Shown here piece after piece: positions 37,072-53,466 of a stretch of DNA of 64,000 nt; position 1 is the stretch's first letter, and each line of letters opens with the position of its first letter. The DNA is from Robiginitalea marina. Its GTDB lineage: Bacteria; Bacteroidota; Bacteroidia; Flavobacteriales; Flavobacteriaceae. A program made the translations under genes and the position numbers. Location: NCBI RefSeq assembly GCF_024006985.1, contig NZ_JAMXIB010000007.1, positions 1 through 64,000 on the forward strand, in the 5' to 3' direction. The notes below the pieces were generated by a model. The model did not search any database and was not told the DNA's origin. It saw only the letters and a program-made list of their open reading frames with translations.

Positions 37072-37114
37072 TAAAGATCCCCTATTTCCCATGGACCCGA
37101 AATGACCTGGGTCA
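37072..37114 (-). promoter_or_regulatory. operator TGACCTGGGTCA plus -7 box GATCTTTA
   Basis: Palindrome at 37103-37114; -7 box at 37079-37072, distance 29.5 bp. Drives DUF2267. Confidence 0.6.
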
Positions 37115-37152: not shown

Positions 37153-37851
37153 TTACCGGCAATACAGGGCAAGGGAAACCATCTCGGAAAAGGACCGTTC
37201 CCGCTGGGTGGCAGAAGTCCGCTCCCCGCTGATCAGGGAATCGGAGATGGTCAGGATCGACAGGGCGCGCACCCTGTGCCTGGAGGCCAGGGAATAGAGC
37301 CCGGCCGTTTCCATTTCCACACAGAGCACCCCGTAGTCGGTCCAGGCCTGGTAGGCCGGGTCGCTTTCAGGATAAAAGGTGTCTGTGGAAAGGATGTTCC
37401 CTGCGTGGAATGAAAGCCCAAGCGCACTGGCTCCCCCGATGGCTTTCTCAAGCAGGCGAAAGTCTGCTGTGGGTGCGAAAATGCCTTGAGGAAAGACCTC
37501 CTGGAGGATGGAGGAAGTGGTGGAAGCACTGACGGCGATGACCAGGTCGCGTAACCCGAGGTCCGGCTGCAGGGCGCCAGCCGTCCCAACCCGGATAATG
37601 GTTTTCACCCCGTAGTCGCGGATCAGCTCATTGTAATAGATCAGGGCCGAGGGAATCCCCATGCCGCTCCCCTGTACGGAGACTTTTTTCCCCTGGTAGG
37701 TACCCGTGAAACCCAGCATCCCCCTGATGCGGTTATAGCAGGTGACATCCTCCAGGAAGGTCTGTGCAATCCATTCCGCCCTCAGCGGATCGCCGGGCAT
37801 CAGAACAAAGTCGGCGATTTCGCCAGGTTTTGCGCCTATGTGCAGACTCAT
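37153..37851 (-). CDS. deoD: purine-nucleoside phosphorylase (DeoD type)
   Basis: 232 residues, usual length for hexameric DeoD. MPGDPLRAEWIAQTFL, GSGMGIPSALIYYNEL, RVGTAGALQ and CVEMETAGLYSLA are family motifs; the SDSLISGE segment near the end holds the catalytic Asp. It phosphorolyses purine (deoxy)nucleosides to base and (deoxy)ribose 1-phosphate. The ATG overlaps the stop of deoC by 4 bp, so the pair is a nucleoside-salvage operon feeding deoxyribose phosphate to DeoC. Confidence 0.93.
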   Translation of the reverse strand: MSLHIGAKPGEIADFVLMPGDPLRAEWIAQTFLEDVTCYNRIRGMLGFTGTYQGKKVSVQGSGMGIPSALIYYNELIRDYGVKTIIRVGTAGALQPDLGLRDLVIAVSASTTSSILQEVFPQGIFAPTADFRLLEKAIGGASALGLSFHAGNILSTDTFYPESDPAYQAWTDYGVLCVEMETAGLYSLASRHRVRALSILTISDSLISGERTSATQRERSFSEMVSLALYCR

Positions 37852-38528
37852 AGCGGTTCAGGGTTATCGCCCTTGACGATTGCAGGCCCGGAGGACGTCC
37901 CGATTCGGGTGGCCCCGGCCTGCAGGAAAGTCCTGGCGGTTTGGGTATCTCGTATCCCGCCGGAGGCTTTCACCTGCATGGTTTCCCCGGCAATTTCTTT
38001 CATCAAAAGCACATCTTCCACCGTGGCCCCTGCGGGACCGAAACCCGTGGAGGTCTTTACAAAATCCCACCCCGACTCCAGGGCCAGCCGGCAGGCCAGG
38101 CGTTTTTCCTCCTCGTTGAGGTAACAGGTTTCCAGGATGAGTTTTAGGACAGCCTTTGGGGCGATTGCCCGAAGTTGGCGCAATTCTTCCGCGACCTTTT
38201 CGGGGGCCCCGGATTTGAGCCACCCGATGTTGACCACCATGTCCAGCTCCCCGGCCCCGTCCCCGAGGCAGGCTTCGGCCTCCCGGCATTTGGCCGGGGT
38301 TGATGAATTTCCATGGGGGAACCCAACCACCGCTGCCAGGCCGACCCCGCTCCCCTGCAGCATTTCCCGGGCCACCCCAAGCCAGCAGCCGCTTACGCAT
38401 ACCGCCCTGAAGTGGAATTCCAGGGCTTCGCGGCACAGGTTGCGGATGGCGGCCTCCGTAGCGGTGGGCGCAAGCAGGGTGTGGTCGATAAACCGGGCCA
38501 GGGATCTGTTGTGCGACGGGTCGGACAT
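37848..38528 (-). CDS. deoC: deoxyribose-phosphate aldolase
   Basis: 226 residues. Schiff-base Lys158 lies in DFVKTSTGF; a second active-site Lys is in QVKASGGIRD; the family start RFIDHTLLAPTAT is present. It splits deoxyribose 5-phosphate into acetaldehyde and glyceraldehyde 3-phosphate. First gene of the deoCD pair (4-bp overlap). A TATCTTTA -7 box (38540-38533) is close upstream. The nearby TGA-N6-TCA site at 38586 faces the other way, toward the universal stress gene. Confidence 0.93.
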   Translation of the reverse strand: MSDPSHNRSLARFIDHTLLAPTATEAAIRNLCREALEFHFRAVCVSGCWLGVAREMLQGSGVGLAAVVGFPHGNSSTPAKCREAEACLGDGAGELDMVVNIGWLKSGAPEKVAEELRQLRAIAPKAVLKLILETCYLNEEEKRLACRLALESGWDFVKTSTGFGPAGATVEDVLLMKEIAGETMQVKASGGIRDTQTARTFLQAGATRIGTSSGPAIVKGDNPEPL

Positions 38529-38585: not shown

Positions 38586-38628
38586 TGACAGAAGTCATAG
38601 TAGGGCCCTTTGGCCCGGAGTACCTTTA
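38586..38628 (+). promoter_or_regulatory. operator TGACAGAAGTCA plus -7 box TACCTTTA
   Basis: Palindrome at 38586-38597; -7 box at 38621-38628, distance 29.5 bp. Drives the two tandem universal stress protein genes. Confidence 0.7.
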
Positions 38629-38654: not shown

Positions 38655-39506
38655 ATGAAAACGATCCTGATTCCCACCGATTTTTCCGATAACGCCTGGC
38701 ACGCGATTGCCTATGCTATGAACTTTTTCAAGGATGAGCCCTGTACCTTTTACCTGCTGCATACCTATTCCCCGGCATTCTACCGGATGGATTACGTGTT
38801 CGGCGGGCCGAGTTTCAGCGCCATCCCCGACGTAGGGGTCGACATTTCGCTGATGGGCCTTGAAAAGACGCTCGAAGATATCAAAAAGGTTTACGACAAT
38901 CCGCGCCACCAGTTTGAGCTTGTCTCCTCCTTCAACACCCTTACGGATGAGGTTGAGGACCTGGTCGGTTCCAGGGGGATCGACCTTGTGGTAATGGGTA
39001 CCAAGGGGGCCAGCGGGGCCAAGGAACTTTTCCTGGGGTCCAATACCGTTTTTGTGATCCGCAAGGGCAAGGCCCCGGTTATGGCCATCCCCGAGCAGGT
39101 AAAATACCACCCGGTGCGCAATATCCTCTTTCCCAGTGATTACCTGAACCGTTACAAGCCGGAGGACCTCCTCCCTATACTGAAGATCGCCCGGATGCAC
39201 CAGGCCCGGTTTACCCTTTTGCACGTCAACGAAGAAGGGGGGCTCACGTTGGAACAAAAAGACAACAAAGCCCACCTGGAGCGGCACCTTGAGGAATTGG
39301 AATACGAGACCGTGGAGCTCGAGGGCCAATTGATGCCGGATGCCGTTTTGGCCTATATCGAGGAACACCCGGTGGACCTTCTGGTGATGATGAACCGCAG
39401 GCACTCCTTCTTCGAGAGGCTCCTGTTGCGGCAGAATGTCGACCAAATTGGCTTCCACGTCAGGATCCCTTTCCTGGTGGTACCCGATACGTCCACAACC
39501 CGGTAA
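38655..39506 (+). CDS. universal stress protein, tandem UspA domains
   Basis: 283 residues from ATG 38655. Two UspA domains: the first opens MKTILIPTDFSDNAW and ends with the nucleotide-binding pattern MGTKGASGAKELFLGSNT; the second opens NILFPSDY and is more divergent, ending LVMMNRRHSFFERLL. It probably binds ATP. The next gene is a close homologue 19 nt downstream. The promoter has a TGA-N6-TCA operator. Universal stress proteins support survival in hypoxia, starvation or stationary phase; the specific partner is unknown. Confidence 0.88.
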   Translation: MKTILIPTDFSDNAWHAIAYAMNFFKDEPCTFYLLHTYSPAFYRMDYVFGGPSFSAIPDVGVDISLMGLEKTLEDIKKVYDNPRHQFELVSSFNTLTDEVEDLVGSRGIDLVVMGTKGASGAKELFLGSNTVFVIRKGKAPVMAIPEQVKYHPVRNILFPSDYLNRYKPEDLLPILKIARMHQARFTLLHVNEEGGLTLEQKDNKAHLERHLEELEYETVELEGQLMPDAVLAYIEEHPVDLLVMMNRRHSFFERLLLRQNVDQIGFHVRIPFLVVPDTSTTR

Positions 39507-39525: not shown

Positions 39526-40374
39526 ATGAAAACCATATTGTTGCCCACCGATTTTTCAAAGAATGCCTGGAATGCCCTGTTTACGGCCCTGAAACTCTAC
39601 CACGACCAGCAGTGCCTGTTTGTGCTGCTCCACACCTTTGAACCGGAACTGGCCAACATCCTTGGCGATCGGGGTGAAAAGCGGCTGGGGACCATCTACC
39701 AGTCGCTGGAAGTGGAATCAGCAGCCAAAATGAAGGAAATCACCGATTACCTGGCGAAAAACCACCAAAACCCCAGGCACCGGTTCCAGGCCCTATGTCG
39801 CCCGGGCGACCTGATCGCCGTGGTACGGCAAAGGATGGAAGCCCACCCTGCCGATATGATTATTATGGGAACCCAGGGGGCCACGGGGGCTGAACGTGTC
39901 TTTTTAGGGAGCAATACGGTGCGCATGCTCAAAAACATACGGAACAAGCCCGTTATTGCCGTCCCGGAGTCCTACGACTTCCAGTGGCTGCGCAGTGTCA
40001 TCTTCCCAACTGATTACATGCAGCACTATGAAGATTTCGAACTCCGGCCGCTGGTCGACCTTATCACCGACTGGAAGGCTACCCTGCACGTGGTCTATGC
40101 CGCCCGGGAATTTGCCCTGAAACCCAAACAGGAGTCCAACAAGGCCTTGCTCCGGACCCGTTTTAAAGGGCATGCCGTAAGGTTTTCAGAAATACCCCTC
40201 GACAAAACCCTGTCCAAAACCCTTACTGACCACAGCAATGCCCAAAAGGCGGACCTCCTGGCCCTGATGCATCACAAGCACTCGATCTTCGAAGGACTGG
40301 CCAAAGAAAAAGTGGTAAATCGAATCGCTTTTGACTCGAAAATACCACTTTTGATCCTGCCTCAATTCCTCTGA
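39526..40374 (+). CDS. universal stress protein, tandem UspA domains
   Basis: 282 residues; ATG 39526 was chosen because MKTILLPTDFSKNAW aligns with the start of the preceding paralogue (ATG 39514 is in frame upstream). First domain ends MGTQGATGAERVFLGSNT, an intact G-2x-G-9x-G(S/T) ATP-binding motif; the second (VIFPTDYMQHYED onward) is degenerate. Co-transcribed with the preceding universal stress gene and thus under the same operator. It converges on a third, oppositely oriented member with 12 nt between stops. Confidence 0.87.
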   Translation: MKTILLPTDFSKNAWNALFTALKLYHDQQCLFVLLHTFEPELANILGDRGEKRLGTIYQSLEVESAAKMKEITDYLAKNHQNPRHRFQALCRPGDLIAVVRQRMEAHPADMIIMGTQGATGAERVFLGSNTVRMLKNIRNKPVIAVPESYDFQWLRSVIFPTDYMQHYEDFELRPLVDLITDWKATLHVVYAAREFALKPKQESNKALLRTRFKGHAVRFSEIPLDKTLSKTLTDHSNAQKADLLALMHHKHSIFEGLAKEKVVNRIAFDSKIPLLILPQFL

Positions 40375-40386
40375 GACCGGCCAGGT

Positions 40387-41247
40387 TCAGAAGAACATCG
40401 TCTGCAGGTTTCGCTCATTGAAACTCAGCAGGGGCAACCGACTGCTGGAGGCCATTTTTTTGACCAGGTCCCCATGGAAAATTTTCTTGGCCGCCCCTTT
40501 TTCCATTCGGTCCAGCATGGCGATCATCCCGGCATGCCTGTTTTTGGAGTAATCCTTCAGGGAGTGGATGATGTTGTCGGATTCCAGTACCTCGTAATGG
40601 ATTTTGTCGTAGTCGATTTTCTGGGCCACCATTTCCCTGAACCACTCCATCTGCGACTGTCCGGCGTATTCCTTGTCCATGGTCACGTGTACCACCCTGA
40701 TGTGGGCATCCCACAGGCGGGCCAGGGCCACTACCTTTTCAAGGGCCCTTAAATCTTCCACCTCAAAATCGGTGGCATAGACCAGGTCGGTTACTTTCTC
40801 GAACCGATGGTCAGCGGGCACGGTCAGTACCGGGCAGGGGGCTTTGTCGATCAGCTTTTTTGCGGTACTGCCCATCACCAGTTCCCTCAGGAGGCTCTCC
40901 CCCCGCATCCCCACGACGATTAACCTGACATGCCAGTCGGTAGCTTTGGAGATAATCCCCGAAAGCACCGACATGTTTTCCACAGGTTCGAAAATGACTT
41001 CCCCGGGCTGCTCCATCTCCCCGGCATATTCCTCATAGAATTCGACGAGGCGGGTGCGTTCGTGCCGCGAAGTGTCTTTGCGCAGGTCCGGGAACGGGGT
41101 CTGGAGCTGGGTGCCCAATATGGTTGGAAGGTCATAGACATGGGTAATTACCAGCCGCATTCCCAGCATGTTACTCAGGGTATTGGCGTAACGCATGGCG
41201 CTAACAGAAGCCATGGAATAATCGGTTGCATAGAGTATTGATTTCAT
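40387..41247 (-). CDS. universal stress protein, tandem UspA domains
   Basis: 286 residues. First domain MKSILYATDYSMASVSAMRYA with the ATP-loop VGMRGESLLRELVMGSTAKKL; second domain DLVYATDFEVEDLRALEK with a degenerate loop. Its own operator TGATTTGGATCA lies 68 nt upstream of the ATG, with the TATCTTTA -7 box at the standard spacing. It is divergent from pta. Confidence 0.88.
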   Translation of the reverse strand: MKSILYATDYSMASVSAMRYANTLSNMLGMRLVITHVYDLPTILGTQLQTPFPDLRKDTSRHERTRLVEFYEEYAGEMEQPGEVIFEPVENMSVLSGIISKATDWHVRLIVVGMRGESLLRELVMGSTAKKLIDKAPCPVLTVPADHRFEKVTDLVYATDFEVEDLRALEKVVALARLWDAHIRVVHVTMDKEYAGQSQMEWFREMVAQKIDYDKIHYEVLESDNIIHSLKDYSKNRHAGMIAMLDRMEKGAAKKIFHGDLVKKMASSSRLPLLSFNERNLQTMFF

Positions 41248-41283: not shown

Positions 41284-41326
41284 TAAAGATATCCCCGGAA
41301 AGCGCGGCGGGAAATGATTTGGATCA
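41284..41326 (-). promoter_or_regulatory. operator TGATTTGGATCA plus -7 box TATCTTTA
   Basis: Palindrome at 41315-41326; -7 box at 41291-41284, distance 29.5 bp. Drives the third universal stress gene. Confidence 0.7.
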
Positions 41327-41450: not shown

Positions 41451-43544
41451 ATGAATAAAGCCATATATATCGCCACCATAGAAGCGAACAGCGGGAAGTC
41501 AATCGTTTCCCTGGGCCTTATGCACCTCCTGCTGGGCAGGATGGCCCGCGTTGGGTATTTCAGGCCGATTATCAATGATTATCCCGAAGGCCAGAAGGAC
41601 AACCATATCCAAACCATCCTGTCGTACTTCAATATCCCCATGGAATACGAAGAGGCCTATGCCTGTACCCGTAGCGAAGTGGTTCTCAAGAGCAGCCGCG
41701 ACCAGGAAGACGAGCTCCTGGATACGATTATCGGGAAATACAAGGCCATAGAAAGCCGGTTCGATTTTGTGCTGGTGGAAGGGACTGATTTTGTGGGCGA
41801 AGGCGCCATTATCGAATGGGATGTAAATGTGTTGATGGCCAAGAACCTCGGCATCCCCACCCTGATTATTTCCAGCGGGGTGGGCAAAACGCTGGAGGAA
41901 CTGGTCAACAGCCTGGCTTTGGCCGTTGACTCCTTCAAGGACAAGGGCGTGGAGGTACTGATGGCGGTCGCCAACAAGGTACAGCCTGAAAACCGGGCCC
42001 TGATCCTCGAGCGCCTGGGCGAAGAACTTCCCGGGGGGGTGTTGCTGGGCGCCATACCCCTGAACCCTGTCCTGTCCAACCCGAGCATCCGGGAGATCGT
42101 TGCCGCGGTGGAGGGCAAGGTTCTTTTCGGGAAAGAGCACCTCGATAACCAGGCCGGGCACTTTGGGGTAGGGGCCATGCAACTGCGCAATTACCTGAAC
42201 CACATGGGGCAGGATACCCTGGTGATTACCCCGGGCGACCGGGCCGACATTATCCTTGGGGCCCTGCAGGCCCATGTGTCCACGAACTATCCGTCCGTTT
42301 CCGGGATTGTCCTTACCGGCGGGCTCCTCCCGGAAGATACGATTATCCGCCTCATCGAGGGCCTCTCCGAGGTGGTTCCCATCATTTCCGTGGAAGGCGG
42401 CACCTTTTCGGTCACCAACCAGATCGGGGCGGTAAGGCCTCAGATCTATGCCGAAAACAGCCAGAAGATAGACGTGTCTATAAAGGATTTTGCGCGGTTT
42501 GTGGAAGAAGATGCCCTGGCCGACCGGCTGGTTACTTTCCGGGCAGAAGGCATCACCCCCAGGATGTTCCAGTACAACCTGCTCAAAAAGGCACAGGCAG
42601 ACCAAAAACACATTGTCCTGCCCGAGGGCACCGATGAGCGGATCCTCAGGGCCTGCCGCGACCTGGTCCACTCCAGGGCTGCCCGGGTCACCCTTTTGGG
42701 CAACCCCGAGGAGATACGACAGAAGGTGGCCCTCCTGGGGCTGGACCTCGACCTTGGGCAGGTACAGGTGCTCAACCCTGCACATTCCCCCCGGTTTGAG
42801 GAGTATGCCCAGACCCTTTACGAACTGCGTAAACACAAGAACATGAGCCCGGCCACCGCCAGGGACCTCATGGAAGACGTTTCCTATTTCGGGACCATGA
42901 TGGTGTACAAAGGCCATGCCGATGGCATGGTTTCCGGGGCAACCCATACCACCCAACACACCATCAGGCCGGCCCTGCAATTTGTCAAGACCCGGCCGGG
43001 GGTTTCCCTGGTTTCCTCGGTCTTCTTTATGCTGCTCCCCGACCGGGTAGTGGTTTTCGGGGATTGCGCCATCAACCCCAACCCCACGGCCGCGGAACTG
43101 GCCGAGATTGCCATCTCGTCGGCCGATACCACTATGGCTTTCGGGCTGGAAGCGCGTATTGCCATGCTTTCCTATTCCTCGGGAAGTTCCGGTCAGGGTG
43201 CAGACGTCGACCGGGTAAGGGAAGCCACCCGCCTGGTCCGCGAAAAACGCCCCGACCTGAAAATCGAGGGGCCTATCCAGTACGACGCGGCCGTGGACCT
43301 GAAAGTAGGGCGCAGCAAGCTGCCCGACTCCGAGGTTGCCGGACGGGCCACGGTTTTTGTCTTCCCTGACCTGAACACGGGGAACAACACCTACAAGGCT
43401 GTACAGCGGGAAACGGGCGCCCTGGCGATTGGCCCGGTACTGCAGGGGTTGAACAAACCGGTTAACGACCTGAGCCGGGGATGCACCGAAGAGGATATTT
43501 ACAATACCGTGGTGATTACCGCTATCCAGGCCCAGGGACTTTAG
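41451..43544 (+). CDS. pta: phosphate acetyltransferase (long form)
   Basis: 697 residues, the long Pta architecture: an N-terminal P-loop/DRTGG regulatory part (IYIATIEANSGKSIVSLGL to about 370) and the C-terminal phosphotransacetylase domain (about 375-697, IVLPEGTDERILRACRDLV, MMVYKGHADGMVSGATHTT, YSSGSSGQGADVDRV). It converts acetyl-CoA and phosphate to acetyl phosphate. ackA follows 29 nt later, giving the acetate pathway that yields ATP when respiration is limited. A 686-codon antisense open frame over the gene is a codon-bias shadow. Confidence 0.93.
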   Translation: MNKAIYIATIEANSGKSIVSLGLMHLLLGRMARVGYFRPIINDYPEGQKDNHIQTILSYFNIPMEYEEAYACTRSEVVLKSSRDQEDELLDTIIGKYKAIESRFDFVLVEGTDFVGEGAIIEWDVNVLMAKNLGIPTLIISSGVGKTLEELVNSLALAVDSFKDKGVEVLMAVANKVQPENRALILERLGEELPGGVLLGAIPLNPVLSNPSIREIVAAVEGKVLFGKEHLDNQAGHFGVGAMQLRNYLNHMGQDTLVITPGDRADIILGALQAHVSTNYPSVSGIVLTGGLLPEDTIIRLIEGLSEVVPIISVEGGTFSVTNQIGAVRPQIYAENSQKIDVSIKDFARFVEEDALADRLVTFRAEGITPRMFQYNLLKKAQADQKHIVLPEGTDERILRACRDLVHSRAARVTLLGNPEEIRQKVALLGLDLDLGQVQVLNPAHSPRFEEYAQTLYELRKHKNMSPATARDLMEDVSYFGTMMVYKGHADGMVSGATHTTQHTIRPALQFVKTRPGVSLVSSVFFMLLPDRVVVFGDCAINPNPTAAELAEIAISSADTTMAFGLEARIAMLSYSSGSSGQGADVDRVREATRLVREKRPDLKIEGPIQYDAAVDLKVGRSKLPDSEVAGRATVFVFPDLNTGNNTYKAVQRETGALAIGPVLQGLNKPVNDLSRGCTEEDIYNTVVITAIQAQGL

Positions 43545-43573: not shown

Positions 43574-44773
43574 ATGCAAACCCAGATCCTCGTTTTGAAT
43601 TCGGGAAGTTCCTCCCTGAAATTCCAGTTGCTCAACATGCCCGATGAAGCCTCGGTATGCCATGGAATAGCCGAGCGGATCGGCACCGGCGGTACCCTGC
43701 TCAAATTCAATTCCCCTGAAGGGGCCTGGCAGGAGGAACTGGGGGATGCGGGCCATCGGGAAGCCCTGCAGCGCATTGCCCAAGCCCTGGGGGAATTGCA
43801 GCCCGGCACCCTTGATGGGGCCAATGGGATTGCCGCCATTGGGCATCGCGTGGTGCACGGGGGTACCCGGTTTTCAGGTACCGTGGCCGCAGATGCGGAG
43901 GTCCTGGAGCAGATCCGCGAACTCTCCGACCTGGCCCCCCTGCACAACCCGCACAACCTGGAAGGGATCCTCCTGTCGGAAGCCTTTTTCCCCGAAGCCC
44001 TTCAGGTTGCCGTTTTCGATACGGCCTTTCACCGGACCATCCCCCTGAAGGCCCGGAAATACGCCCTGCCCGAAAACCTTTACAGACAGCACGGCATACA
44101 GGTGTACGGGTTCCACGGAACCAGCCACAAGTATGTGCACAGCCTGGTGGCTCCCCTGCTTCCGGAAGGCGCCAAGGTGGTAAGCCTCCACCTGGGCAAC
44201 GGATGTAGCGCCACGGCGATCAGGGGAGGGCAGAGTATCGACCACAGCCTGGGCTTTACCCCTTCCAATGGCCTTATCATGGGGTCCCGGAGCGGCGATA
44301 TCGACCATGGGATAATCTTCTACCTGGTAGAGGAACTGGGGTATTCCCTCGAAGATGTCAAGAAACTGTTGAACAGGGAGAGCGGCCTGCTCGGCCTAAC
44401 CGGTTTCAGCGACTTCCGCGATATCCAACAGGGGGCAGCCCAGGGCGATGAGGCCTGCAGGCTGGCCCTTGAGATGGCTGCTTACCGGATCAAAAAATAC
44501 ATAGGGGCCTACGCGGCTGCGATGAACGGGTTGGATGCCGTCCTGTTTACCGCAGGGATTGGGGAACATTCCTCTGTGCTCCGCGAAGCGGTCTGTCGCG
44601 ACCTCGACTTTCTGGGGGTTCGCCTCGACCTGCAGAAGAACGGGGAATCCGGTGGGCGGGTACATCCCATCCACGCCGCAGATTCCCGGGTACGGGTGTT
44701 CGTGGTCCGCACCGATGAGGAGTTGGCCATCGCCAGGGAGGCACTTCGGCTGTGGAGGGAGCGCCGGGGATGA
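43574..44773 (+). CDS. ackA: acetate kinase
   Basis: 399 residues from ATG 43574 (MQTQILVLNSGSSSLKFQLL). Family motifs: GHRVVHGGTRF, FDTAFHRTIP, GFHGTSHKYV, HLGNGCSATAI, FTAGIGEHS. It transfers phosphate from acetyl phosphate to ADP. Second gene of the pta-ackA pair. The pair sits inside a block of universal stress, class II RNR and other low-oxygen-type genes. Confidence 0.94.
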   Translation: MQTQILVLNSGSSSLKFQLLNMPDEASVCHGIAERIGTGGTLLKFNSPEGAWQEELGDAGHREALQRIAQALGELQPGTLDGANGIAAIGHRVVHGGTRFSGTVAADAEVLEQIRELSDLAPLHNPHNLEGILLSEAFFPEALQVAVFDTAFHRTIPLKARKYALPENLYRQHGIQVYGFHGTSHKYVHSLVAPLLPEGAKVVSLHLGNGCSATAIRGGQSIDHSLGFTPSNGLIMGSRSGDIDHGIIFYLVEELGYSLEDVKKLLNRESGLLGLTGFSDFRDIQQGAAQGDEACRLALEMAAYRIKKYIGAYAAAMNGLDAVLFTAGIGEHSSVLREAVCRDLDFLGVRLDLQKNGESGGRVHPIHAADSRVRVFVVRTDEELAIAREALRLWRERRG

Positions 44774-45239: not shown

Positions 45240-46001
45240 TTACAAGCGTTCCTTCAGGGAGGTCTGCAGGATTTCACGCGTGCGGTCCATGATTTCTTCC
45301 ACCCGGGCCACAGGCATTCCTTTGATCAGGGCCACGTCTTCGAGGGAGAACAGCTGTTCCGTAACCAGTTCAAAAATCGAGCGCATGGGCTGCGGCAGCC
45401 TGAAGAGGGTGGCATCGAGGTGGCCCTGGGCCCGCTCCCTGGAATCTTCCTTTTCCATAAGGGCCATCAGGTCCTCATGGGCATCGTCGAGGAAAATGTT
45501 TTTAAGCAGGTAGTGGTGGTCGCGGTAGGAAATATCATCCAACTCGTCCATCATCACCAGGTCGCCATCCCCGTCTGTGCTGAAGGCCTCGTCCATCCCT
45601 TCCCTTTCCGCTTTGGAATAATCGTCTATATTGTCGTACAGGTACGCTTCGAATTCTTCCTCCACCTCCATGTCGCTGAGGAGTTTTTCCGCCCGCTGGA
45701 AGATCCAGGAATGGAACTGGCCTTTGTCCCCCACCTCGTCGAGGTGGTCATAGACCTCCAGGATCAGTTGGTCAAAGAGGTCTTCGGGCCGGTATTTGTT
45801 ATGTGAAATCACCCCTTTGGCAAGGGCGATGCGAAGGCCCCGGGTGAGATAGCGTTTGGCGCCCTGTAGGAGCTTCAACAACAACTCATTGAAGGCTTCG
45901 CGTTTGTCTTCTTCCCTCAGCCGCTTCAGGACCGGGTAATTCTCGTTGACAAACCGGTGGAATTCGGCCTGTCTTTTGTCGTAATGCAGGGTATTTTCCA
46001 T
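45240..46001 (-). CDS. sigma-70-like transcription factor with acidic insert
   Basis: 253 residues from ATG 46001; the GTG at 46025 is too close to the predicted transcription start. The N-terminal half contains a region-2-like helix (PEDLFDQLILEVYDHLDEV, FHSWIFQRAEKLL). The C-terminal end has a region-4-like helix-turn-helix (LPQPMRSIFELVTEQLFSLE, VALIKGMPVARVEEI). Between them lies an insert of about 80 residues rich in Asp and Glu (DDYSKAEREGMDEAFSTDGD). Such divergent sigma-like proteins occur in flavobacterial stress clusters. The promoter carries a TGA-N6-TCA operator, so it may relay the stress response. Confidence 0.65.
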   Translation of the reverse strand: MENTLHYDKRQAEFHRFVNENYPVLKRLREEDKREAFNELLLKLLQGAKRYLTRGLRIALAKGVISHNKYRPEDLFDQLILEVYDHLDEVGDKGQFHSWIFQRAEKLLSDMEVEEEFEAYLYDNIDDYSKAEREGMDEAFSTDGDGDLVMMDELDDISYRDHHYLLKNIFLDDAHEDLMALMEKEDSRERAQGHLDATLFRLPQPMRSIFELVTEQLFSLEDVALIKGMPVARVEEIMDRTREILQTSLKERL

Positions 46002-46028
46002 GACGCCTTCATTTTTGGGGTTCACAGT

Positions 46029-46071
46029 ACAAGGTCATCTTTTTACCCTCCAAAAAAAATGATCTGTATCA
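46029..46071 (-). promoter_or_regulatory. operator TGATCTGTATCA with weak -7 box GACCTTGT
   Basis: Palindrome at 46060-46071. At the standard 29.5-bp distance the sequence 46036-46029 reads GACCTTGT, the weakest -7 box of the set. Faces the sigma-like gene. Confidence 0.5.
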
Positions 46072-46149: not shown

Positions 46150-46192
46150 TGACGCAGGTCATTTCCCTCCCGGAATGGAATTCCTAGTTTAG
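46150..46192 (+). promoter_or_regulatory. operator TGACGCAGGTCA plus -7 box TAGTTTAG
   Basis: Palindrome at 46150-46161; -7 box at 46185-46192, distance 29.5 bp. Drives the YtxH operon; back to back with the operator of the sigma-like gene. Confidence 0.6.
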
Positions 46193-46231: not shown

Positions 46232-46561
46232 ATGAGAACAGATAGTGGAACCATTATGCTGGCCCTGTTGACAGGAGCAGCTATCGGAGCCGGGGTAGGA
46301 ATCCTCTATGCCCCGGACAAAGGGTCCAAAACCCGGAAAAAAATCAAAAACAAAGTAGAGGAGACCAGCCATGACCTGGCTGAACGCCTTACCCACGCCA
46401 AGGACGAACTTACCCGTTCCGCAAGGGAAAAAAGGGATGAGTTCGAGCACAAGCTGGAAGATACCCTGAGCACGATGAGCTACAAGGCCGATGATATCAT
46501 CGCCGGCCTGGAACATAAGCTGGAAGACCTTCGCAAGAAGAACGCCCAGTTTCAGAAGTAA
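46232..46561 (+). CDS. YtxH-like stress protein
   Basis: 109 residues: a short hydrophobic N-terminal segment (IMLALLTGAAIGAGVGILYA, about 7-26) with the PDKGSKTRKKIKNKVEE motif of YtxH/general stress proteins, then a charged amphipathic helix to the end. First gene of a three-gene operon (next genes 5 and 4 nt away) with a TGA-N6-TCA operator. Probably membrane-associated; function unknown. Confidence 0.78.
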   Translation: MRTDSGTIMLALLTGAAIGAGVGILYAPDKGSKTRKKIKNKVEETSHDLAERLTHAKDELTRSAREKRDEFEHKLEDTLSTMSYKADDIIAGLEHKLEDLRKKNAQFQK

Positions 46562-46921: not shown

Positions 46922-47164
46922 ATGAAAAGGAAGTTTTCCTCTTTCGAAGAGATCGACGCGCAACTGGAGCTGCTCCGGGTGCAGCGGCAACTCAGTATGA
47001 ACCGCTTAAGGCTTCAACTGAGGGAAAGCCCGGTGCAGATCGCGAGCAGCCTCTGGACGCAGGCCGTAAAGCCAGCCCTTACCAACGCGGCCATCGGCTG
47101 GCTCTTGCGACGCCTCAGGGGCATGCGCCAGAAATTGCGGCCTGAGCTGCCCCCGGCGGCTTAG
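46922..47164 (+). CDS. small protein, DUF6327-like
   Basis: 80 residues from ATG 46922 (MKRKFSSFEEIDAQLELLRV). The SSFEEID start followed by a long basic helix and a hydrophobic C-terminal segment (TNAAIGWLLRRL) resembles the DUF6327 family, usually the third gene behind YtxH and a holin-like gene. It overlaps the stop of the convergent response regulator gene by 4 bp. Function unknown. Confidence 0.6.
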   Translation: MKRKFSSFEEIDAQLELLRVQRQLSMNRLRLQLRESPVQIASSLWTQAVKPALTNAAIGWLLRRLRGMRQKLRPELPPAA

Positions 47165-48231
47165 CCGAAAGCAGCGATTTGTTCCAGCCGTTTGCGATCG
47201 AGGATGAGAATCCGGCGCGATTTCCCCATTCCAATGACCCCTTCTTCCTTGAGTTCCGAGAGCGTCCGGATCGCGGTTTCCGTAGCTGTGCCGACCATGC
47301 CCGCCAGATCTTCGCGGGCAATATCGATGCCTTCTTTTGTTTCGTTTTGAATCAGGCCAGCCCTTTGTAATTTGAGCAGGGCCCTGGCCAGCCGCTGCCT
47401 GACCGGCGAATAGGCCAGGTTCACCAGCTGCTGCTGGGCGTCGATCAGGTCGCTGGAAATCAACTCGATGAACTTCTGAGAAACTTCCCGGTTCTCCTCC
47501 AGCAGGTGTACGAAGTCTGCCTTGGGGATGCTGTAGATTTCGGAGGGTTCGATGATGGTGGCGGTCTCCAGGTAGGTGTTGTTGGGGTTCAGCATCGACA
47601 ATTGCCCGACGAATTCCCCTTCCTGGCAGATCCCGGTGACCAGTTCCTTGCCCCCTTCGGTGGATTTGTAGGTCTTTACCAGCCCGCTTTTGAGGAAAAA
47701 GAGGTGGTGGGCGGCATTGCCTTCCATAAACAGGATTTCCCGGGGCTTGTAGTTTTTGGAGTAGTAGGTTTTTTCAATGGCTTCCCGGTTGAGGTAGGCC
47801 GAGGCCTCCTGCAAGAATTCATTGATCCCCCGCAGGTCCCTGCTGAATTCCCTCTGGAAGAATTCGTGCTTTTTGAGGCGTGTGGAGACAGCTTCCAGCA
47901 GTTCATGTTCTTCGAAGGGTTTGGTCAGGTAGTCGTCTGCCCCGAGGTTCATGCCTTTCCGCACATCGGTCCGGTCCGCTTTCGCCGAAAGGAAGATAAA
48001 GGGGATTTTGGCGGTCCGTTCTTCCCGCTGAAGGGTTTCCAGTACCTGGTATCCGTCGATACCCGGCATCATGATATCGCAGATAATCAGGTCCGGGGCC
48101 AGGTTTCTGGCCTTTTCAATCCCGGACGCCCCGTCGGGGCTGGTTACAACCTGGTAGTGCGCCAGTTCCAGCAAATCAGCGGTGTTTTCGCGTACGTCCT
48201 GGTTGTCTTCAATGATCAGAATTTTCTTCAT
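47161..48231 (-). CDS. response regulator: receiver fused to Crp/Fnr-type DNA-binding protein
   Basis: 356 residues. Receiver domain 1-122 with phospho-acceptor D52 (LIICDIMMPG), acidic D9 and Lys of DDYLTKPF; a cyclic-nucleotide-binding fold about 150-240 (PREILFMEGNAAHHLFFLKS); and a Crp-type winged helix about 260-350. The recognition helix TATETAIRTLSEL keeps Glu (318) and Arg (322) at the positions that read TGA in Crp and Fnr sites. Its start overlaps the histidine kinase gene by 23 bp, so phosphorylation by that kinase is likely. It is the natural candidate to bind the 13 TGA-N6-TCA sites described here, including the one before its own operon. Whether it binds cAMP is open. Confidence 0.88.
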   Translation of the reverse strand: MKKILIIEDNQDVRENTADLLELAHYQVVTSPDGASGIEKARNLAPDLIICDIMMPGIDGYQVLETLQREERTAKIPFIFLSAKADRTDVRKGMNLGADDYLTKPFEEHELLEAVSTRLKKHEFFQREFSRDLRGINEFLQEASAYLNREAIEKTYYSKNYKPREILFMEGNAAHHLFFLKSGLVKTYKSTEGGKELVTGICQEGEFVGQLSMLNPNNTYLETATIIEPSEIYSIPKADFVHLLEENREVSQKFIELISSDLIDAQQQLVNLAYSPVRQRLARALLKLQRAGLIQNETKEGIDIAREDLAGMVGTATETAIRTLSELKEEGVIGMGKSRRILILDRKRLEQIAAFG

Positions 48232-51200
48232 CTGCCTTTTGGTTTAGGTGCACCGGCAGGTGCAGGTGGAAGGTACTCCCCTCATGGAGCCGGCTTTGGA
48301 AGGAAATCGTCCCTCCCATCAGTTCGGTATATTGTTTAACGATGTGCAGTCCAAGGCCGGTGCCCGGGATGTTAATGGCGTTCCCGGCGCGGAAGAACCG
48401 CTGGAACAGCTGGTCCTGCTCGGCTTCAGGGATGCCCATACCCTCGTCTTTCACGGAAATGGTCAGGGAATCGCCCTCGCAGTGGATATGGATAAAAATC
48501 ACCTTGTCTTCCCGGGAATACTTGATGGCATTTGAAAGGAGGTTCAGCAGGATATGGCGCATGAGTTTCGGGTCGAGGGTTACCATCAGCGATCCCACGG
48601 CCACCTCCTCCACGAAATGCTGGCCTACCTTGAGGCTGCTTTCCAGTTCTTCCAGCACGGATCGGATGAGCTCCAGCAGGTCGAAACGGACCGGGTCGCA
48701 GCTCATTTTTCCTTCCTCCAGCTTGCTCAGCGACAGGAAGTCATTCAAGATGACCACCAGGTTCCTGACGTTGTTCTTGATTTGGTTCAGGTACCTTAGA
48801 CGCTTTTCCTCCTTGCCGGGTTCATTCTGCTTTCCGATAAGGATGGCTGAGGAATGAATGGCGCTGAGCGGGGTGCGGAATTCATGGGATGCCATGGAGA
48901 TAAAGCGCGATTTCAACTCGTTGAGTTCCTGCTCGATCTGCAGGGCCCTTAGCAGCTCCTTTTCCGCCTTTTTATGCTCGGTTATGTTGCTGAAGACCAA
49001 CAGGGCGGAGCCCTTTCCTTCCCTCATGGGCAGGGGGGAGGAATTCACGTCGTAAATATTTTCCCCCACCTGGAATTCAAAGGAATGGTGCCGGCCCTCC
49101 AGGGTGTTCCCGATTTTTGAGGCCAGGTCCGATACCTGGGCCGGGGAGAGGCCGGGGGTATCGCTCAGGGACATGCCTTCGAAGTCCCAGCGGTCCAACG
49201 CCAGGCGGTCCAGCTCTTCCCCTTGCAGGTGCAGGTAACGGAGTGCCTGGTCGAAGACCATAATGACGCCTTTGGGGAAGTTCCTCGCAATGGCAGCAAA
49301 GAGTGATTCGCTGGCCAGGGCGCGGTCTTCTGCCTCCTGCGTGGTCCGTATTTGCTGTTCCAGGCTGAGGTTGGTTTTCAGCAATTGCTGTACGGTGGAT
49401 TCTACTTCCCGGGTGCGCTCGGCGACGTCCCGCTCCAGGTTCTTGGCGTATTTTTCCAGTTTTTGCTGGCTCGCTTCCAGCCGCTGGCGGGTCAGGTGCC
49501 TCTCGATCGCTAACCCTGCCAGTTGCAGTGCATCCAGGATTAACTCTTCGTGCTCTTTGCCAGGCTTTCCGGGGGTTTTGCTGAAAAAAGTACAGGTGCC
49601 AAGCACCATTTTTTCGGAGGACAAAACCGGGTAGGACCAACTGCTGCGATACCCGGCTTCTTCAAGCGCTATCAGGAAGGGGCCGGGTTTCGGGATGTCC
49701 CGGAGGTCGCTGAGCCATACCGCTTTTTTGGTTAGGGTGGCCTCGCGACAGGGACGGCCGGAATCTTCCCGGAGGGAGACTTGTTGAAGGTGCCTTTCCA
49801 GGGAATGGGCCAACCCCTGGCTCCCGATGGGTTGGAGCATATCGGTTTCCGGGACCGTGAGGCACAGCTGCACCCCCAGGCGGGGAAGGCGGCTGCCCAG
49901 CAATTTCAGGATGGCGTTTGCACACTGCTCCAGGGGCAGGTCCTGGGTTATCGATTCCAGGATGTTGCGGACCAGGTCTTTGCGTTCCCCCTCGAAGATG
50001 AGCTCGCTGACGTCGTTCTGGACCCCGATAAAGTGGGTGGCCTTCCCGGTTTCGTCCAGGATGGGGGTTATGGTCAGTTCGTTCCAGAAGAGGCTTCCAT
50101 CCTTGCGGTAGTTCCTGAGCACCACCCTTGAAGGGCCGCCTTCTTTCAAGGCTTTGCGGATGGTTTCAATCGCTGCCTGTTCCGTGTCGTCGCCCTGCAG
50201 GAAGCGGCAGTTTTTCCCAATGACCTCCTCCCTGGGATAGCCGGTAATTTTCGTAAAGGCCTCGTTGCAGTAGATTACCGGGTTGTCGGGTTGGCTGCCG
50301 TCGGAAATCAGGATCCCGTTCCCGGCGGCTTCCAGCGCCCGGTTTCTCAGGTCCAGCACCCTTTGGGTCGACCGGGCCCGGGTAATGTCGCGGGCCACCC
50401 CCAAAACCTGGCCGGTTCCGGCCGGGGCATATCGGATTTCAAAGCATCGGCGCCCCAGTTCAGAGTCGAGGGAGAATTCAAGGTTTGTTGTTTTTCCCTC
50501 TTCCATGCATTGCCGGATGCAGGTTTGCATAGGTTTCGCAATAGTTTCCGGAAAGCACTCCGAAACCAATTTTCCCTCCAGGGTTTCAGGGCTCCAGAAG
50601 GGGTCTTCCGTTTCCAGGGCTTTCACATCCAGAATTTTTCCCCTGGGGCCATGGATCAGGATCACGTCGGGGATGGCTTTCAGGATAGCCCGGTTCCTGG
50701 CTTCGCTGTCGAGGAGCTCCCGCTCCATGATCCTTTGTTCGGTAATATCTGCCCCTGAGCAGATAAGCCCCGTAATGGTTCCATCAGGATCCTTCAACAG
50801 GGCATTCCGCCAGCGGATCAACCGTTTTTTTCCCTTGCCGGTGCCCATGTGGCTTTCAAAATACTCGGTCAGTTCACTTCGCCCTTCCATAGTGCTCCTG
50901 AAGAGGATCCTGAGCCGTTTCCCCTCGGAGGGGCTCCCCAGGAACGAAAGCCAGTTCTTGCCCAGCAGCGCATCACGTGAATACCCGAGCACTTCACAAA
51001 CTTTTTGGTTGACCAGGACGATTTCAAAGTTGGGCCGGATCACTGCGAACATAGACGCGGCCGAATCGAGATAACTCTGCAACCGTCTTTTTTCCCTGAG
51101 CAGGGCTTTCTGGCTGCGCACCTGCAGGGAGACATCCCGAACTATGGCCAGAACCCTAAGGTCATTCATGGGAACCAACCGGGCCTCATAAAATCGGGTT

Positions 51201-51820
51201 GCTCCGGCGGTAAGTGAGAAATCCAGTTGCTGCGGCTGTTTTATTTGCATCACCTGCTCCATGGCAGCATAAAACCGGTCCATTACCCGTGAAGGGAGGA
51301 ATTGAGCCAGGGTACGTCCCTTAACCAGGGTTTCCCCTGAAAGGAATCCCGACCCCAGGGGGGGATAAAAATCCAGGAGGTTTCCGTGGAAATCCATCAT
51401 GAGGATGGTATCCGGGATGGCCTCCAGCAGGGCATCTGTTTTAATTCTTTCTTCTTTCAGGAGCGCTTTCTGGCCCTGACCGGGAACGGCCCCGATTGCT
51501 TTCAGGAGCAGGAGCCATAGGCCCCGGGTTCCCGTGGCGTGTGCTTCCACCTGCAGTTGCATAAGCGCTGATCCCGGGGGTTGGCCCGGGTAGGGAAGGG
51601 TAAAGGGTTGATCCCCTTCCAGCTTTTCGCCGGGGATTCCCCCGGGGATGAATTCCGAAACTGCCCGGCCATCAAAGCCTTCAGGGGTGGTTCCGAAGAG
51701 CCTGGCCGCCGCAGGGTTCCCCATTCGGATCTGGCCCTTGCGGTCTATAAGCAGTACAGCTTCCCCCGTAGCCTGAAACAGGGGAAGCAAATGCGAGGGA
51801 TGTACCTGGGTAGGGTCCAT
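48209..51820 (-). CDS. LOV/multi-PAS/GAF sensor histidine kinase
   Basis: 1203 residues from ATG 51820 (an in-frame ATG at 51880 is possible). No membrane helix, so a cytoplasmic sensor. In order: PAS domains (about 8-120, 140-255, 275-375, 395-490), a LOV domain (about 506-605) with GKNCRFLQG (Cys538), flavin-contact Asn residues in LRNYRKDG and FWNELTI and the Gln of FIGVQND, a GAF domain (about 615-780), a coiled coil, another PAS, HisKA with His979 (MASHEFRTPLSAIH) and a HATPase domain (LSNAIKYS, DEGMGIPEAEQ, GTGLGLHIVKQ). It should sense blue light or flavin redox plus other signals and phosphorylate the receiver-Crp protein whose gene overlaps its 3' end. Confidence 0.9.
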   Translation of the reverse strand: MDPTQVHPSHLLPLFQATGEAVLLIDRKGQIRMGNPAAARLFGTTPEGFDGRAVSEFIPGGIPGEKLEGDQPFTLPYPGQPPGSALMQLQVEAHATGTRGLWLLLLKAIGAVPGQGQKALLKEERIKTDALLEAIPDTILMMDFHGNLLDFYPPLGSGFLSGETLVKGRTLAQFLPSRVMDRFYAAMEQVMQIKQPQQLDFSLTAGATRFYEARLVPMNDLRVLAIVRDVSLQVRSQKALLREKRRLQSYLDSAASMFAVIRPNFEIVLVNQKVCEVLGYSRDALLGKNWLSFLGSPSEGKRLRILFRSTMEGRSELTEYFESHMGTGKGKKRLIRWRNALLKDPDGTITGLICSGADITEQRIMERELLDSEARNRAILKAIPDVILIHGPRGKILDVKALETEDPFWSPETLEGKLVSECFPETIAKPMQTCIRQCMEEGKTTNLEFSLDSELGRRCFEIRYAPAGTGQVLGVARDITRARSTQRVLDLRNRALEAAGNGILISDGSQPDNPVIYCNEAFTKITGYPREEVIGKNCRFLQGDDTEQAAIETIRKALKEGGPSRVVLRNYRKDGSLFWNELTITPILDETGKATHFIGVQNDVSELIFEGERKDLVRNILESITQDLPLEQCANAILKLLGSRLPRLGVQLCLTVPETDMLQPIGSQGLAHSLERHLQQVSLREDSGRPCREATLTKKAVWLSDLRDIPKPGPFLIALEEAGYRSSWSYPVLSSEKMVLGTCTFFSKTPGKPGKEHEELILDALQLAGLAIERHLTRQRLEASQQKLEKYAKNLERDVAERTREVESTVQQLLKTNLSLEQQIRTTQEAEDRALASESLFAAIARNFPKGVIMVFDQALRYLHLQGEELDRLALDRWDFEGMSLSDTPGLSPAQVSDLASKIGNTLEGRHHSFEFQVGENIYDVNSSPLPMREGKGSALLVFSNITEHKKAEKELLRALQIEQELNELKSRFISMASHEFRTPLSAIHSSAILIGKQNEPGKEEKRLRYLNQIKNNVRNLVVILNDFLSLSKLEEGKMSCDPVRFDLLELIRSVLEELESSLKVGQHFVEEVAVGSLMVTLDPKLMRHILLNLLSNAIKYSREDKVIFIHIHCEGDSLTISVKDEGMGIPEAEQDQLFQRFFRAGNAINIPGTGLGLHIVKQYTELMGGTISFQSRLHEGSTFHLHLPVHLNQKADEENSDH

Positions 51821-51955: not shown

Positions 51956-51999
51956 CAAAGGTAGTCGGTACGGGGCTTCCCATTTTATGACAACCGTCA
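51956..51999 (-). promoter_or_regulatory. operator TGACAACCGTCA plus -7 box TACCTTTG
   Basis: Palindrome at 51988-51999; a perfect TAnnTTTG at 51963-51956 faces the kinase gene at 30.5 bp. A TAAATTTA box at 52022-52029 lies 28.5 bp on the other side, toward the patatin gene. Predicts autoregulation of the kinase/regulator operon. Confidence 0.65.
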
Positions 52000-52064: not shown

Positions 52065-52844
52065 ATGAAGACAGCTTTAGTCCTTTCCGGCGGCGGATAT
52101 CGGGGGATTGCCCACATTGGGGTGCTTCGGGCCCTTGAGGAATGGGGCCTGACCCCTGACCTCATTGCCGGCACCAGCGCAGGGGCCGTTATAGGGGCCC
52201 TCTATGCGCAGGGTACCACGACAGAGGAAATGCTCAAATTGTTCAAGGGGTTGCAATTGCTGAGTTTCAGCAATTACGCCTTTGGGAAACCCGGCTGGGT
52301 GGACCCTGAGAATTTCCGGGAGACCCTGAAAAAGCACCTCCCGGAGGATGACTTTTCTTCCCTCAAAATCCCAATGCGGGTTACGGCGACAAATATCCTG
52401 ACGGGAGAACTTAAGGTTTTCACCGAAGGCCCATTGATCGCAACCCTGCTGGCATCCGCCGCGTTCCCTGGGGTTTTTGCGCCTGTGGAGATCGGGGAGG
52501 GCTACTATGTAGACGGGGGGGTCATGAACAACTTTCCCGCCGATCTGGTTCGTGACGACGCCGACGTGGTGATTGGGGTATATGTGAATCCCTTCGAACA
52601 AGTGGGCAAGGCAGATATCAAGCACTCCATTACAGTCCTGGAACGGGTCATAAAAATTAAGACGGCCACGGATTCTATCGCCAAGTTCGAGCTGTGCGAC
52701 CTGCTGATCTATCCCAGGAAATTGCGCAAATTCAGCACTTTTATGGAGAAGGACCTCGATACCATATACGAGCTCGGGTATCGCGAAGCCCGAAAACAAT
52801 TGAAGGATGCCCCCGAGGGGCTTCTTCCCGGGAAAAAGGAATAA
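52065..52844 (+). CDS. patatin-like phospholipase
   Basis: 259 residues. Oxyanion loop SGGGYRGIAHIGVLRAL at the N-terminus, nucleophile GTSAGAVIGALYA (Ser about 41) and catalytic DGG (VDGGVMNNFPADL, Asp about 155): the Ser-Asp dyad of patatin/RssA-type lipid hydrolases is complete. Cytoplasmic, no signal. It is divergent from the sensor kinase operon and shares its intergenic operator region, so lipid turnover may be linked to the same signal. It converges on hsp20. Confidence 0.88.
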   Translation: MKTALVLSGGGYRGIAHIGVLRALEEWGLTPDLIAGTSAGAVIGALYAQGTTTEEMLKLFKGLQLLSFSNYAFGKPGWVDPENFRETLKKHLPEDDFSSLKIPMRVTATNILTGELKVFTEGPLIATLLASAAFPGVFAPVEIGEGYYVDGGVMNNFPADLVRDDADVVIGVYVNPFEQVGKADIKHSITVLERVIKIKTATDSIAKFELCDLLIYPRKLRKFSTFMEKDLDTIYELGYREARKQLKDAPEGLLPGKKE

Positions 52845-52911: not shown

Positions 52912-53376
52912 TCAGCCTACTTCAATCACTTTGGGAGGCCTCTTCTTGGCTTCCTCCCTTTTCATCAATTTAAAGCGCAGGATACCGTCGTTGTACCTGG
53001 CTTTAATTTCTTCCTCTTTAACGGTTTCAGGAAGTTGCAGGGATCTTTCGAAAGCGGAATAGTTAAATTCCCTACGGGTGTACTCCTCTTCTTTCTCCTC
53101 TTTGGTGAATTCTTTTTTGGCAGAAATGTTGAGGAATCCGTCTTCGATGGTCACCTCAAAGTCTTTTTTCGAGAACCCCGGTGCAGCCAGTTCTATTTCA
53201 AAATGGTCGTCGGTTTCCCTGATGTTTAGTGCTGGTTCCACGGTTTTTCCGTTCCAGAAGTCCGTTTCCATCAGCCCGCCTTTCCACATGCGGTCGTCGA
53301 AGAAGTTCTCCATATCAAAGAAGTCCCGGGTGATCAGGCTTCCGAATGGCCTTCTGTTAAACTTAACTAAGGTCAT
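52912..53376 (-). CDS. Hsp20/alpha-crystallin small heat-shock protein
   Basis: 154 residues from ATG 53376. The alpha-crystallin domain runs about 44-148: PALNIRETDDHFEIELAAPG, FSKKDFEVTIEDGFLNISA, and FERSLQLPETVKEEEIKARY before the conserved DGIL. It holds unfolding proteins in solution without ATP. The promoter has the operator TGATCCACGTCA at the standard distance from a TATCTTCG box, so it belongs to the proposed regulon, as alpha-crystallin does in the mycobacterial Dos response. Confidence 0.92.
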   Translation of the reverse strand: MTLVKFNRRPFGSLITRDFFDMENFFDDRMWKGGLMETDFWNGKTVEPALNIRETDDHFEIELAAPGFSKKDFEVTIEDGFLNISAKKEFTKEEKEEEYTRREFNYSAFERSLQLPETVKEEEIKARYNDGILRFKLMKREEAKKRPPKVIEVG

Positions 53377-53423
53377 GATAAATGGGGTTTTTAAGGTTAG
53401 ACAATAGGTTTTTTTGATCACCC

Positions 53424-53466
53424 CGAAGATATAAAGGCCTTTTGGCCAGGGAAATGATCCACGTCA
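53424..53466 (-). promoter_or_regulatory. operator TGATCCACGTCA plus -7 box TATCTTCG
   Basis: Palindrome at 53455-53466; -7 box at 53431-53424, distance 29.5 bp. Drives hsp20. Confidence 0.65.

Follow-up and report, generated by a model that had tools for sequence, protein, structure and literature searches.

The stretch analysed here, called the window throughout, is the first 64 kb of contig C47 in the genome of Robiginitalea marina (G000; 49 contigs, 3.25 Mb) and has a GC content of 55%. It carries an uninterrupted open reading frame (ORF) of 356 amino acids for a response regulator in which a receiver is joined to a Crp-type module, referred to below as RR-Crp. A large sensor kinase gene lies directly upstream on the same strand, its stop end overlapping the RR-Crp start by 23 bp, and genes for stress and low-oxygen functions stand around the pair. 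As judged from the sequence, RR-Crp probably controls this surrounding gene cluster through a single palindrome. The two central features are as follows.

47161..48231, minus strand: RR-Crp, with a receiver (D52), a cyclic-nucleotide-binding (cNMP) type fold and a Crp helix-turn-helix (E318, R322); Pfam and residue alignment
48209..51820, minus strand: sensor histidine kinase, 1203 amino acids from MDPTQ, with PAS domains, LOV, GAF, HisKA and HATPase; profiles, the start codon being a choice

The receiver-Crp protein and its kinase

RR-Crp matches the Pfam families Response_reg (residues 4-115), cNMP_binding (159-247), HTH_Crp_2 (279-352) and Crp (305-333), all above the cut-offs, the Crp/Fnr profiles being PF00027, PF13545 and PF00325. 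Residues 52, 318 and 322 read D, E and R, and these matches and residues confirm the three-part architecture that a first-pass annotation of this DNA had proposed, namely a phosphorylatable receiver, a cyclic-nucleotide-binding fold and a Crp helix-turn-helix. Its placing of Glu318 and Arg322 at positions that contact a TGA half-site also stands, as the two residues align with E181 and R185 of E. coli CRP and with the corresponding E and R of FNR. The alignment of relatives has 114 rows: of 120 loci tried, 7 that were not full-length were dropped, leaving 113, to which the window, itself among these loci, adds a row. In all 114 the receiver residues E8, D9 and D52 are invariant, as are the equivalents of CRP E181 and R185, and K104 is invariant in 42 rows. 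The protein thus has the acidic pair, phosphoacceptor Asp and conserved Lys of two-component receivers alongside the cNMP-type fold, Crp helix-turn-helix and TGA-reading E and R of the Crp/Fnr family. Residues from about 155 to 353 match Crp/Fnr structures in fold, and a structure model (pLDDT 78.7, pTM 0.47) supports the domains while leaving their mutual arrangement unsure. The N-terminal Fe-S cysteine cluster is absent from RR-Crp, the N-terminus being the receiver, in which C51 adjoins D52.

In the genus Robiginitalea, represented by ten members among 60 relatives, RR-Crp is full-length in G000 and G004-G009, is cut by a contig end in G001 and is absent from the congeners G002 and G003. 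It was found at E<=1e-55 in 66 of 149 family genomes (one genome per genus). A scan of named genomes matched at least 593 stretches, of which at least 581 encode an RR-Crp relative, and the best 80 of these at least 581 relatives form the set of named loci used below (L149-L228). A kinase ORF lies directly upstream of RR-Crp in 79 of the 80 (two are fragments at a contig end, and L220 has none), or in 78 of 80 when a longer minimum length is applied; by this gene order, kinase and receiver-Crp form a widespread Bacteroidota pair. Two loci titled Bacteriovorax and Alphaproteobacteria (L171 and L223) also carry receiver-Crp genes, and since L223 is near-identical to the Runella locus L228, its bin is probably contaminated. 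In a tree of RR-Crp, a supported group of 40 rows holds the window protein, and the kinases seen there are mostly large. A separate group holds 22 Flavobacteriaceae rows of a kind with 38-45% identity. In ten stretches of this kind a motif test found a kinase in none, and Usp-like (universal stress protein-like) ORFs are present in 9 of 10. A second receiver-Crp kind, with no adjacent kinase by the motif test, was noted at L132, L134 and L140-L147 (e.g., in G081 and G175), with palindromic sites present, mostly beside Usp genes. The sensor labels on the tree are incomplete (26 rows are ‘unk’, and L017 is labelled ‘noHK’ despite a kinase-like ORF just before the gene), so that the sensor history is read as ‘mosaic’ only.

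The window kinase carries GKNCRFLQ from residue 535, in its LOV domain, and ASHEFRTP at residue 977, in HisKA. The best solved matches to the region around GKNCRFLQ are LOV-type domains, with E down to 6.5e-39 and NCRFLQ aligned, and the kinase therefore has both the GxNCRFLQ cysteine motif and the LOV-type sequence. It is apparently soluble, with no strongly hydrophobic 19-residue stretch anywhere in its length (highest Kyte-Doolittle mean 1.06). A LOV kinase adjoins RR-Crp in six of the eight genomes with a full kinase, in five of the eight window-type RR-Crp stretches where a kinase was found, and in 10 of the 80 named loci. A glutamine after FIGV usually reports the flavin state; of the six LOV kinases, three have Q here and three have V, I or H. 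Given that LOV occurs in some lineages and in few named loci, light or flavin redox is a likely input for the window's lineage, not for the whole family. The predicted LOV domain in the RR-Crp-adjacent kinase of many Flavobacteriaceae is a new observation.

A FixL-type heme sensor was considered as the general kinase input and rejected. Of 79 kinases, a narrow motif picked out 2 and a wider motif 18, among which 15 have the proximal His and 5 the distal Arg; both motifs are missing from the window kinase. Five kinases (L188, L178, L185, L186 and L190) do have a PAS domain with His at the heme-ligand position of DosP and FixL and Arg at the distal one, and the nearest solved structures to the PAS of L188 are the heme PAS domains of those two proteins.

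Palindromic operators in the window and around relatives

The palindrome TGAYNNNNRTCA (TGAYN4RTCA) occurs 16 times in the window; 100 dinucleotide shuffles gave 2.39 on average, and not one of them had as many as 16. Thirteen copies are intergenic by the gene list used here, although intergenic DNA makes up 10% of the window (binomial 5e-11), and the remaining three, at 15942, 21963 and 33549, lie inside genes. Measured against its own genome, the window holds 16 sites where 4.7 are expected, which is 3.4 times the average density (P 3.6e-5). The centres of the 13 intergenic sites are 40-216 bp from start codons as annotated here, and these sites are evidently the 13 operators with TGA half-sites that the first-pass annotation had counted. 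They are listed below as predicted operators from the motif scan, without strand.

10864..10875: TGATTTATGTCA, divergent CDP-alcohol transferase / 226-aa gene
11021..11032: TGACCCCGGTCA, divergent CDP-alcohol transferase / 226-aa promoter region
14402..14413: TGACTTGTATCA, before a flavodoxin-like gene
30502..30513: TGACATTCGTCA, before mlaE
33868..33879: TGACCTGTATCA, before nrdJ, also before a divergent small gene
33928..33939: TGACCAACGTCA, before nrdJ, also before a divergent small gene
37103..37114: TGACCTGGGTCA, before the DUF2267 gene
38586..38597: TGACAGAAGTCA, divergent deoC-like / usp
41315..41326: TGATTTGGATCA, divergent usp / pta-ackA
46060..46071: TGATCTGTATCA, divergent sigma-like / ytxH
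46150..46161: TGACGCAGGTCA, divergent sigma-like / ytxH
51988..51999: TGACAACCGTCA, between the kinase/RR-Crp operon and the divergent patatin gene
53455..53466: TGATCCACGTCA, before hsp20

The site at 51988, which had been named earlier as lying at the regulator's own operon, is present there. As it stands between the kinase start (51820) and the divergent patatin gene, it could serve either. A site 20-350 bp before the kinase operon recurs in 41 of 77 related loci, against 1 of 77 for a reversed control pattern; with a different gene clustering, 44 loci have it. Before all other genes of these loci, sites were found in 217 of 792 cases and reversed sites in 17. Over the 80 named loci (947 kb) there are 320 sites around RR-Crp as opposed to 40 of the reversed pattern. 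Of the 320, 264 are intergenic, the intergenic fraction being 0.17. Against each genome's own site rate, islands show an excess of sites in every one of the 7 congeners examined, with P between 2e-6 and 0.007.

The genes recurrently found downstream of sites at the relatives are Usp (19 loci), an uncharacterised 164-aa family (12), DoxX (11), YtxH, Hsp20, a sigma-like protein and a 111-aa family (10 each), patatin and hemA (9 each), an MscS-type channel and a P-type ATPase (6 each), and a 130-aa family and a BON-like protein (5 each). Pfam was run on ten representatives of these families. The Usp, YtxH, Hsp20, sigma-like, patatin and BON labels are assumed names, given in part by resemblance to window proteins, and the ATPase we take to be CcoI/FixI-like. 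The island itself recurs in congeners with RR-Crp, with gaps and losses and with dense sites, in the order DUF2267, deoC, usp, pta, ackA, a 136-aa gene, sigma-like, (ytxH, holin-like), RR-Crp, kinase, (patatin), hsp20, gldJ-like.

Candidate readers of the sites

The genome has four HTH_Crp_2 matches, with the recognition helices GTATETAIR in RR-Crp, GTATESCIR in an FNR-like protein, and TVREVISR and SSRVVISR in the other two. The FNR-like protein (G000:C46:48755-49447) carries CENC at its N-terminus and a Cys where FNR has C122, and its gene is flanked by those of a Usp and of a P-type ATPase, presumably CcoI/FixI-like; its own gene and the adjacent Usp gene both carry sites. E. coli fnr likewise neighbours uspE. 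At the four predicted base-contact positions (T-E-x-x-I-R) this protein equals RR-Crp, so that the sequence gives no reason for the two to prefer different cores, and it was as a live rival on this account that the operator cores were compared.

The cores differ. Across the genus, A stands at half-site position 5 (A5) in 29 of 112 half-sites of RR-Crp islands and in 20 of 26 at FNR-like loci (Fisher 2e-6), with core GC of 0.46 and 0.27, respectively; an earlier set of four 20-kb FNR-like stretches, two of them from G002 and G003, gave 29/112 vs 17/20. Six equal-GC genomes outside the genus showed the same, with A5 in 26/106 RR-Crp and 17/20 FNR-like half-sites (4.8e-7) and core GC of 0.36 and 0.03. 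At the pta promoter, A5 half-sites number 1/18 in the presence of RR-Crp and 7/10 in its absence (Fisher 7e-4). The A5 share is higher at the FNR-like locus in 13 of 13 genomes (sign test 1.2e-4), with FNR-like loci giving one or two intergenic sites per genome and related genomes not being independent. The island operators are thus a class of their own, and we infer that RR-Crp reads it; the two predicted classes may be written as TGAYYNNRRTCA for RR-Crp and TGAYAWWTRTCA for the FNR-like protein.

Together with the shared contact residues and the small, partly dependent sample just mentioned, several results weigh against this assignment. The class split is not significant in the Usp-array group (21/50 vs 6/8, P 0.13). 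A strict TGA-N6-TCA site is present at 5 of 15 pta loci without RR-Crp, as compared to 8 of 11 with it (28 of 30 pta loci were looked at, L055, the window's own, and L059, of G002, being dropped, and the window site was taken from the window scan). That the pta regions of G002 (1 vs 2.3) and G003 (1 vs 1.0), which have no RR-Crp, show no site enrichment would speak for the assignment, yet these regions also lack most island genes, so that the loss of sites is confounded and suggestive only. Motif excess over whole genomes of the genus does not track RR-Crp, the count being 205 vs 44 in G002 without it and 157 vs 46 reversed in G008 with it; the reversed pattern can contain the stop triplet TAG, so that the coding background is probably underestimated here. 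In the 149 family genomes, TGAYCT half-sites are weakly commoner in carriers than in non-carriers (P 0.026), and TGAYAA half-sites are commoner in carriers too (P 0.003); such genome-wide counts are uninformative for RR-Crp presence, and the half-site patterns pick up coding noise. Finally, on the sensor side of the preferred explanation, among the eight kinases examined those of the congeners G004 and G005 have no LOV.

The alternative that survives best is that both proteins bind the same sites as an AND/OR gate of oxygen (through the FNR-like protein) and the kinase signal (through RR-Crp), the core tuning affinity. This we regard as a serious possibility, if short of even odds, and it overlaps with the assignment to RR-Crp, the two not being mutually exclusive. 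It would fit the identical predicted contacts and the overlap of the operator classes, 29 of the 112 island half-sites having A5, as well as the TGAC-type sites nearby upstream of the FNR-like gene in G000, G006 and G007; the strength of the class split speaks against it.

More radically, the FNR-like protein could be the real reader of all TGA-N6-TCA sites, with RR-Crp being one target or having a minor or unrelated regulon. Beyond its identical contacts and the sites at its own and the adjacent Usp gene, this protein is present in the congeners that lack RR-Crp, of which G002 keeps a site before usp-pta-ackA, and the pta sites at 5 of 15 RR-Crp-less loci point the same way. Against it, sites at FNR-like loci are richer in A-T than those of the island in all 13 genomes, and RR-Crp neighbourhoods with other gene contexts are also site-rich. 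Moreover, an FNR-like match at E<=1e-60 is absent from 8 of 30 genomes, namely G086, G088, G095, G140, G016, G031, G036 and G009; apart from G009, which is 74% complete, all seven have RR-Crp loci that still hold sites. These genomes are no clean test, since other Crp proteins with E-x-x-x-R exist in G016, G036, G095 and G140 (in G088 there were none among those read, one weak match being unread, and G086 and G031 were outside the comparison). On balance we consider exclusive reading by the FNR-like protein improbable. The first-pass annotation had called RR-Crp the probable master regulator and had named another Crp/Fnr protein in the genome as what could overturn this. Such a protein exists and has the same contacts, and ‘master’ was therefore an overstatement, yet operator cores differ in 13 of 13 genomes and comparison supports assigning the island sites to RR-Crp.

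Of the other two Crp proteins, the one at G000:C6:23075-23269 has the helix TVREVISR, which resembles the R-E-x-x-x-R of E. coli CRP. The stop codon of its gene is overlapped by a palindrome, TGACCCGGGTCA, for which chance or a terminator is a likelier explanation than an operator.

A small ligand such as cAMP, which had been suggested to act jointly with phosphorylation, was rejected as a co-signal. Where CRP has the cAMP-contact residues E72, R82, T127 and S128, the window protein has Q, Y, A and Q, and E72, R82 and S128 are kept in none of the 114 rows and T127 in 6. Integration of phosphorylation with a cyclic nucleotide or similar ligand is accordingly very improbable, even though the cNMP-type fold is intact and above cut-off and the residue at the R82 position (Y in 99 rows, H in 11, C in 2 and F in 2) might, as Y, mark another pocket, for FNR too keeps the fold without binding cAMP.

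Proposed circuit, known systems and island genes

Our preferred explanation, to which we give a probability of about 0.7, is that the LOV kinase and RR-Crp form a two-component system acting on the TGAY-N4-RTCA sites of their own operon and of the nearby stress and low-oxygen island. From the adjacency of the genes we infer that the two proteins are partners. The PAS/LOV/GAF kinase (48209-51820), with light or flavin redox presumably sensed through LOV, would phosphorylate D52 of RR-Crp, and phosphorylation would replace cAMP as the switch of a Crp-type dimer. The phosphorylated dimer would bind the TGAY-N4-RTCA palindromes, feed back on the operon that encodes RR-Crp, serve as the chief reader of the island and switch on the genes for Usp, Hsp20, Pta-AckA, NrdJ, DUF2267, YtxH and patatin. 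The FNR-like protein would work on the related operator class with a more A-T-rich core and, having the same contacts, would probably give a network that overlaps with that of RR-Crp. Acetyl phosphate, a general phosphodonor, is both produced and consumed by Pta-AckA, and a further feedback is therefore possible. Relative to the first-pass annotation, this scheme keeps the receiver, the TGA-reading helix, the own-operon site and the assignment of the island, gives up the ligand and the rank of master, and adds the LOV kinase and the breadth in Bacteroidota, both of which had been missed.

Several known systems bear a likeness to this one. The sites of Crp/Fnr regulators have the same TGA-N6-TCA half-site spacing as the island operators. 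E. coli CRP and FNR, Bradyrhizobium FixK2 and Pseudomonas DNR share the fold of RR-Crp residues 155-353 or so, and CRP and FNR share its E and R base contacts, but RR-Crp adds an N-terminal phosphorylatable receiver and lacks the cAMP residues and the N-terminal Fe-S cysteines. In the rhizobial FixLJ-FixK cascade, a sensor kinase acts through a receiver on a Crp/Fnr output at TGA-N6-TCA-like boxes. The order kinase, receiver, Crp/Fnr output is the same here, and the L188 kinase PAS comes closest to FixL and DosP; unlike that cascade, receiver and Crp output are one protein, and the window kinase has no FixL-like PAS motif. The abstract of PMC6710368 names the FixLJ-FixK2-NnrR cascade. Histidine kinases with LOV domains include LovK and the Brucella LOV-HK. 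These have, like the window kinase, a canonical LOV with the photoactive-cysteine motif in a HisKA/HATPase kinase, whereas the presumed output of the window kinase is a Crp-type response regulator. Among the listings and abstracts searched, no pairing of a LOV kinase with a Crp-type regulator came up, nor, in open-licence literature, a study of the receiver-Crp architecture, widespread as this architecture is in Bacteroidota.

In gene content (Usp, Hsp20, class II ribonucleotide reductase, Pta-AckA) the island resembles those of DosR and OsdR, whose output domain differs from the Crp type. PMC5069765 describes DevR/DosR of Mycobacterium and OsdR of Streptomyces as systems in which kinase and regulator act on their own operon and a surrounding Usp/heat-shock cluster, with many binding sites gathered about the regulator and close to genes for universal stress proteins, and with an operator of the GGGCC type. 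The system described here differs in having a Crp module on TGA-N6-TCA and a cluster that includes Pta-AckA and a B12 ribonucleotide reductase. With output domain and operator differing, the likeness is one of functional analogy, not membership. A wider picture, which we hold tentatively and think rather unlikely to be right as a whole, would make this a Bacteroidota-wide system for stress and low oxygen that converged on DosR, with a FixJ-like receiver and a FixK-like DNA-binding module united in a single protein. Its sensor would be exchangeable and in marine Flavobacteriaceae a LOV domain, which would put an anaerobic-survival regulon under the control of blue light or flavin redox, and the system would run beside the FNR-like oxygen regulator, not through it.

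Should the preferred explanation hold, the joint switch-on of universal stress proteins, a small heat-shock protein, energy from acetate and DNA synthesis independent of oxygen could be traced to a single operator motif and a single kinase-regulator pair. A Crp-type regulator that responds to phosphate in place of a ligand, and that some lineages couple to a light-type sensor, would be a further consequence and might serve as a tool. The genes of the island in the window are as follows.

34079..35803, plus strand: class II (B12) ribonucleotide reductase NrdJ, predicted target; TIGR02504 over cut-off
36594..37043, minus strand: DUF2267 protein, predicted target
37153..38528, minus strand: deoD and deoC-like genes, predicted targets; deoD by TIGR00107 over cut-off, the deoC name being our assumption from the sequence
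38655..39506, plus strand: universal stress protein
39526..40374, plus strand: universal stress protein
40387..41247, minus strand: universal stress protein; Pfam
41451..43544, plus strand: phosphate acetyltransferase Pta; profile
43574..44773, plus strand: acetate kinase, start chosen at MQTQIL, which we take to be AckA from its sequence and the conserved position after pta
45240..46025, minus strand: sigma-70-like protein; weak profile match, below cut-off
46232..46561, plus strand: YtxH-like protein; Pfam
52065..52844, plus strand: patatin-like phospholipase; Pfam
52912..53421, minus strand: Hsp20 small heat-shock protein; Pfam

Two further observations concern particular sites. The operator at 30502 stands 42 bp before mlaE, followed by genes that we take to resemble mlaF and mlaD, and hints at lipid transport in the regulon. 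The sigma-70-like protein at 45240-46025 is divergent in sequence and conserved as part of the island; the divergent promoter of its gene contains two operators, and a family similar to it stands behind sites in 10 of the 80 named loci.

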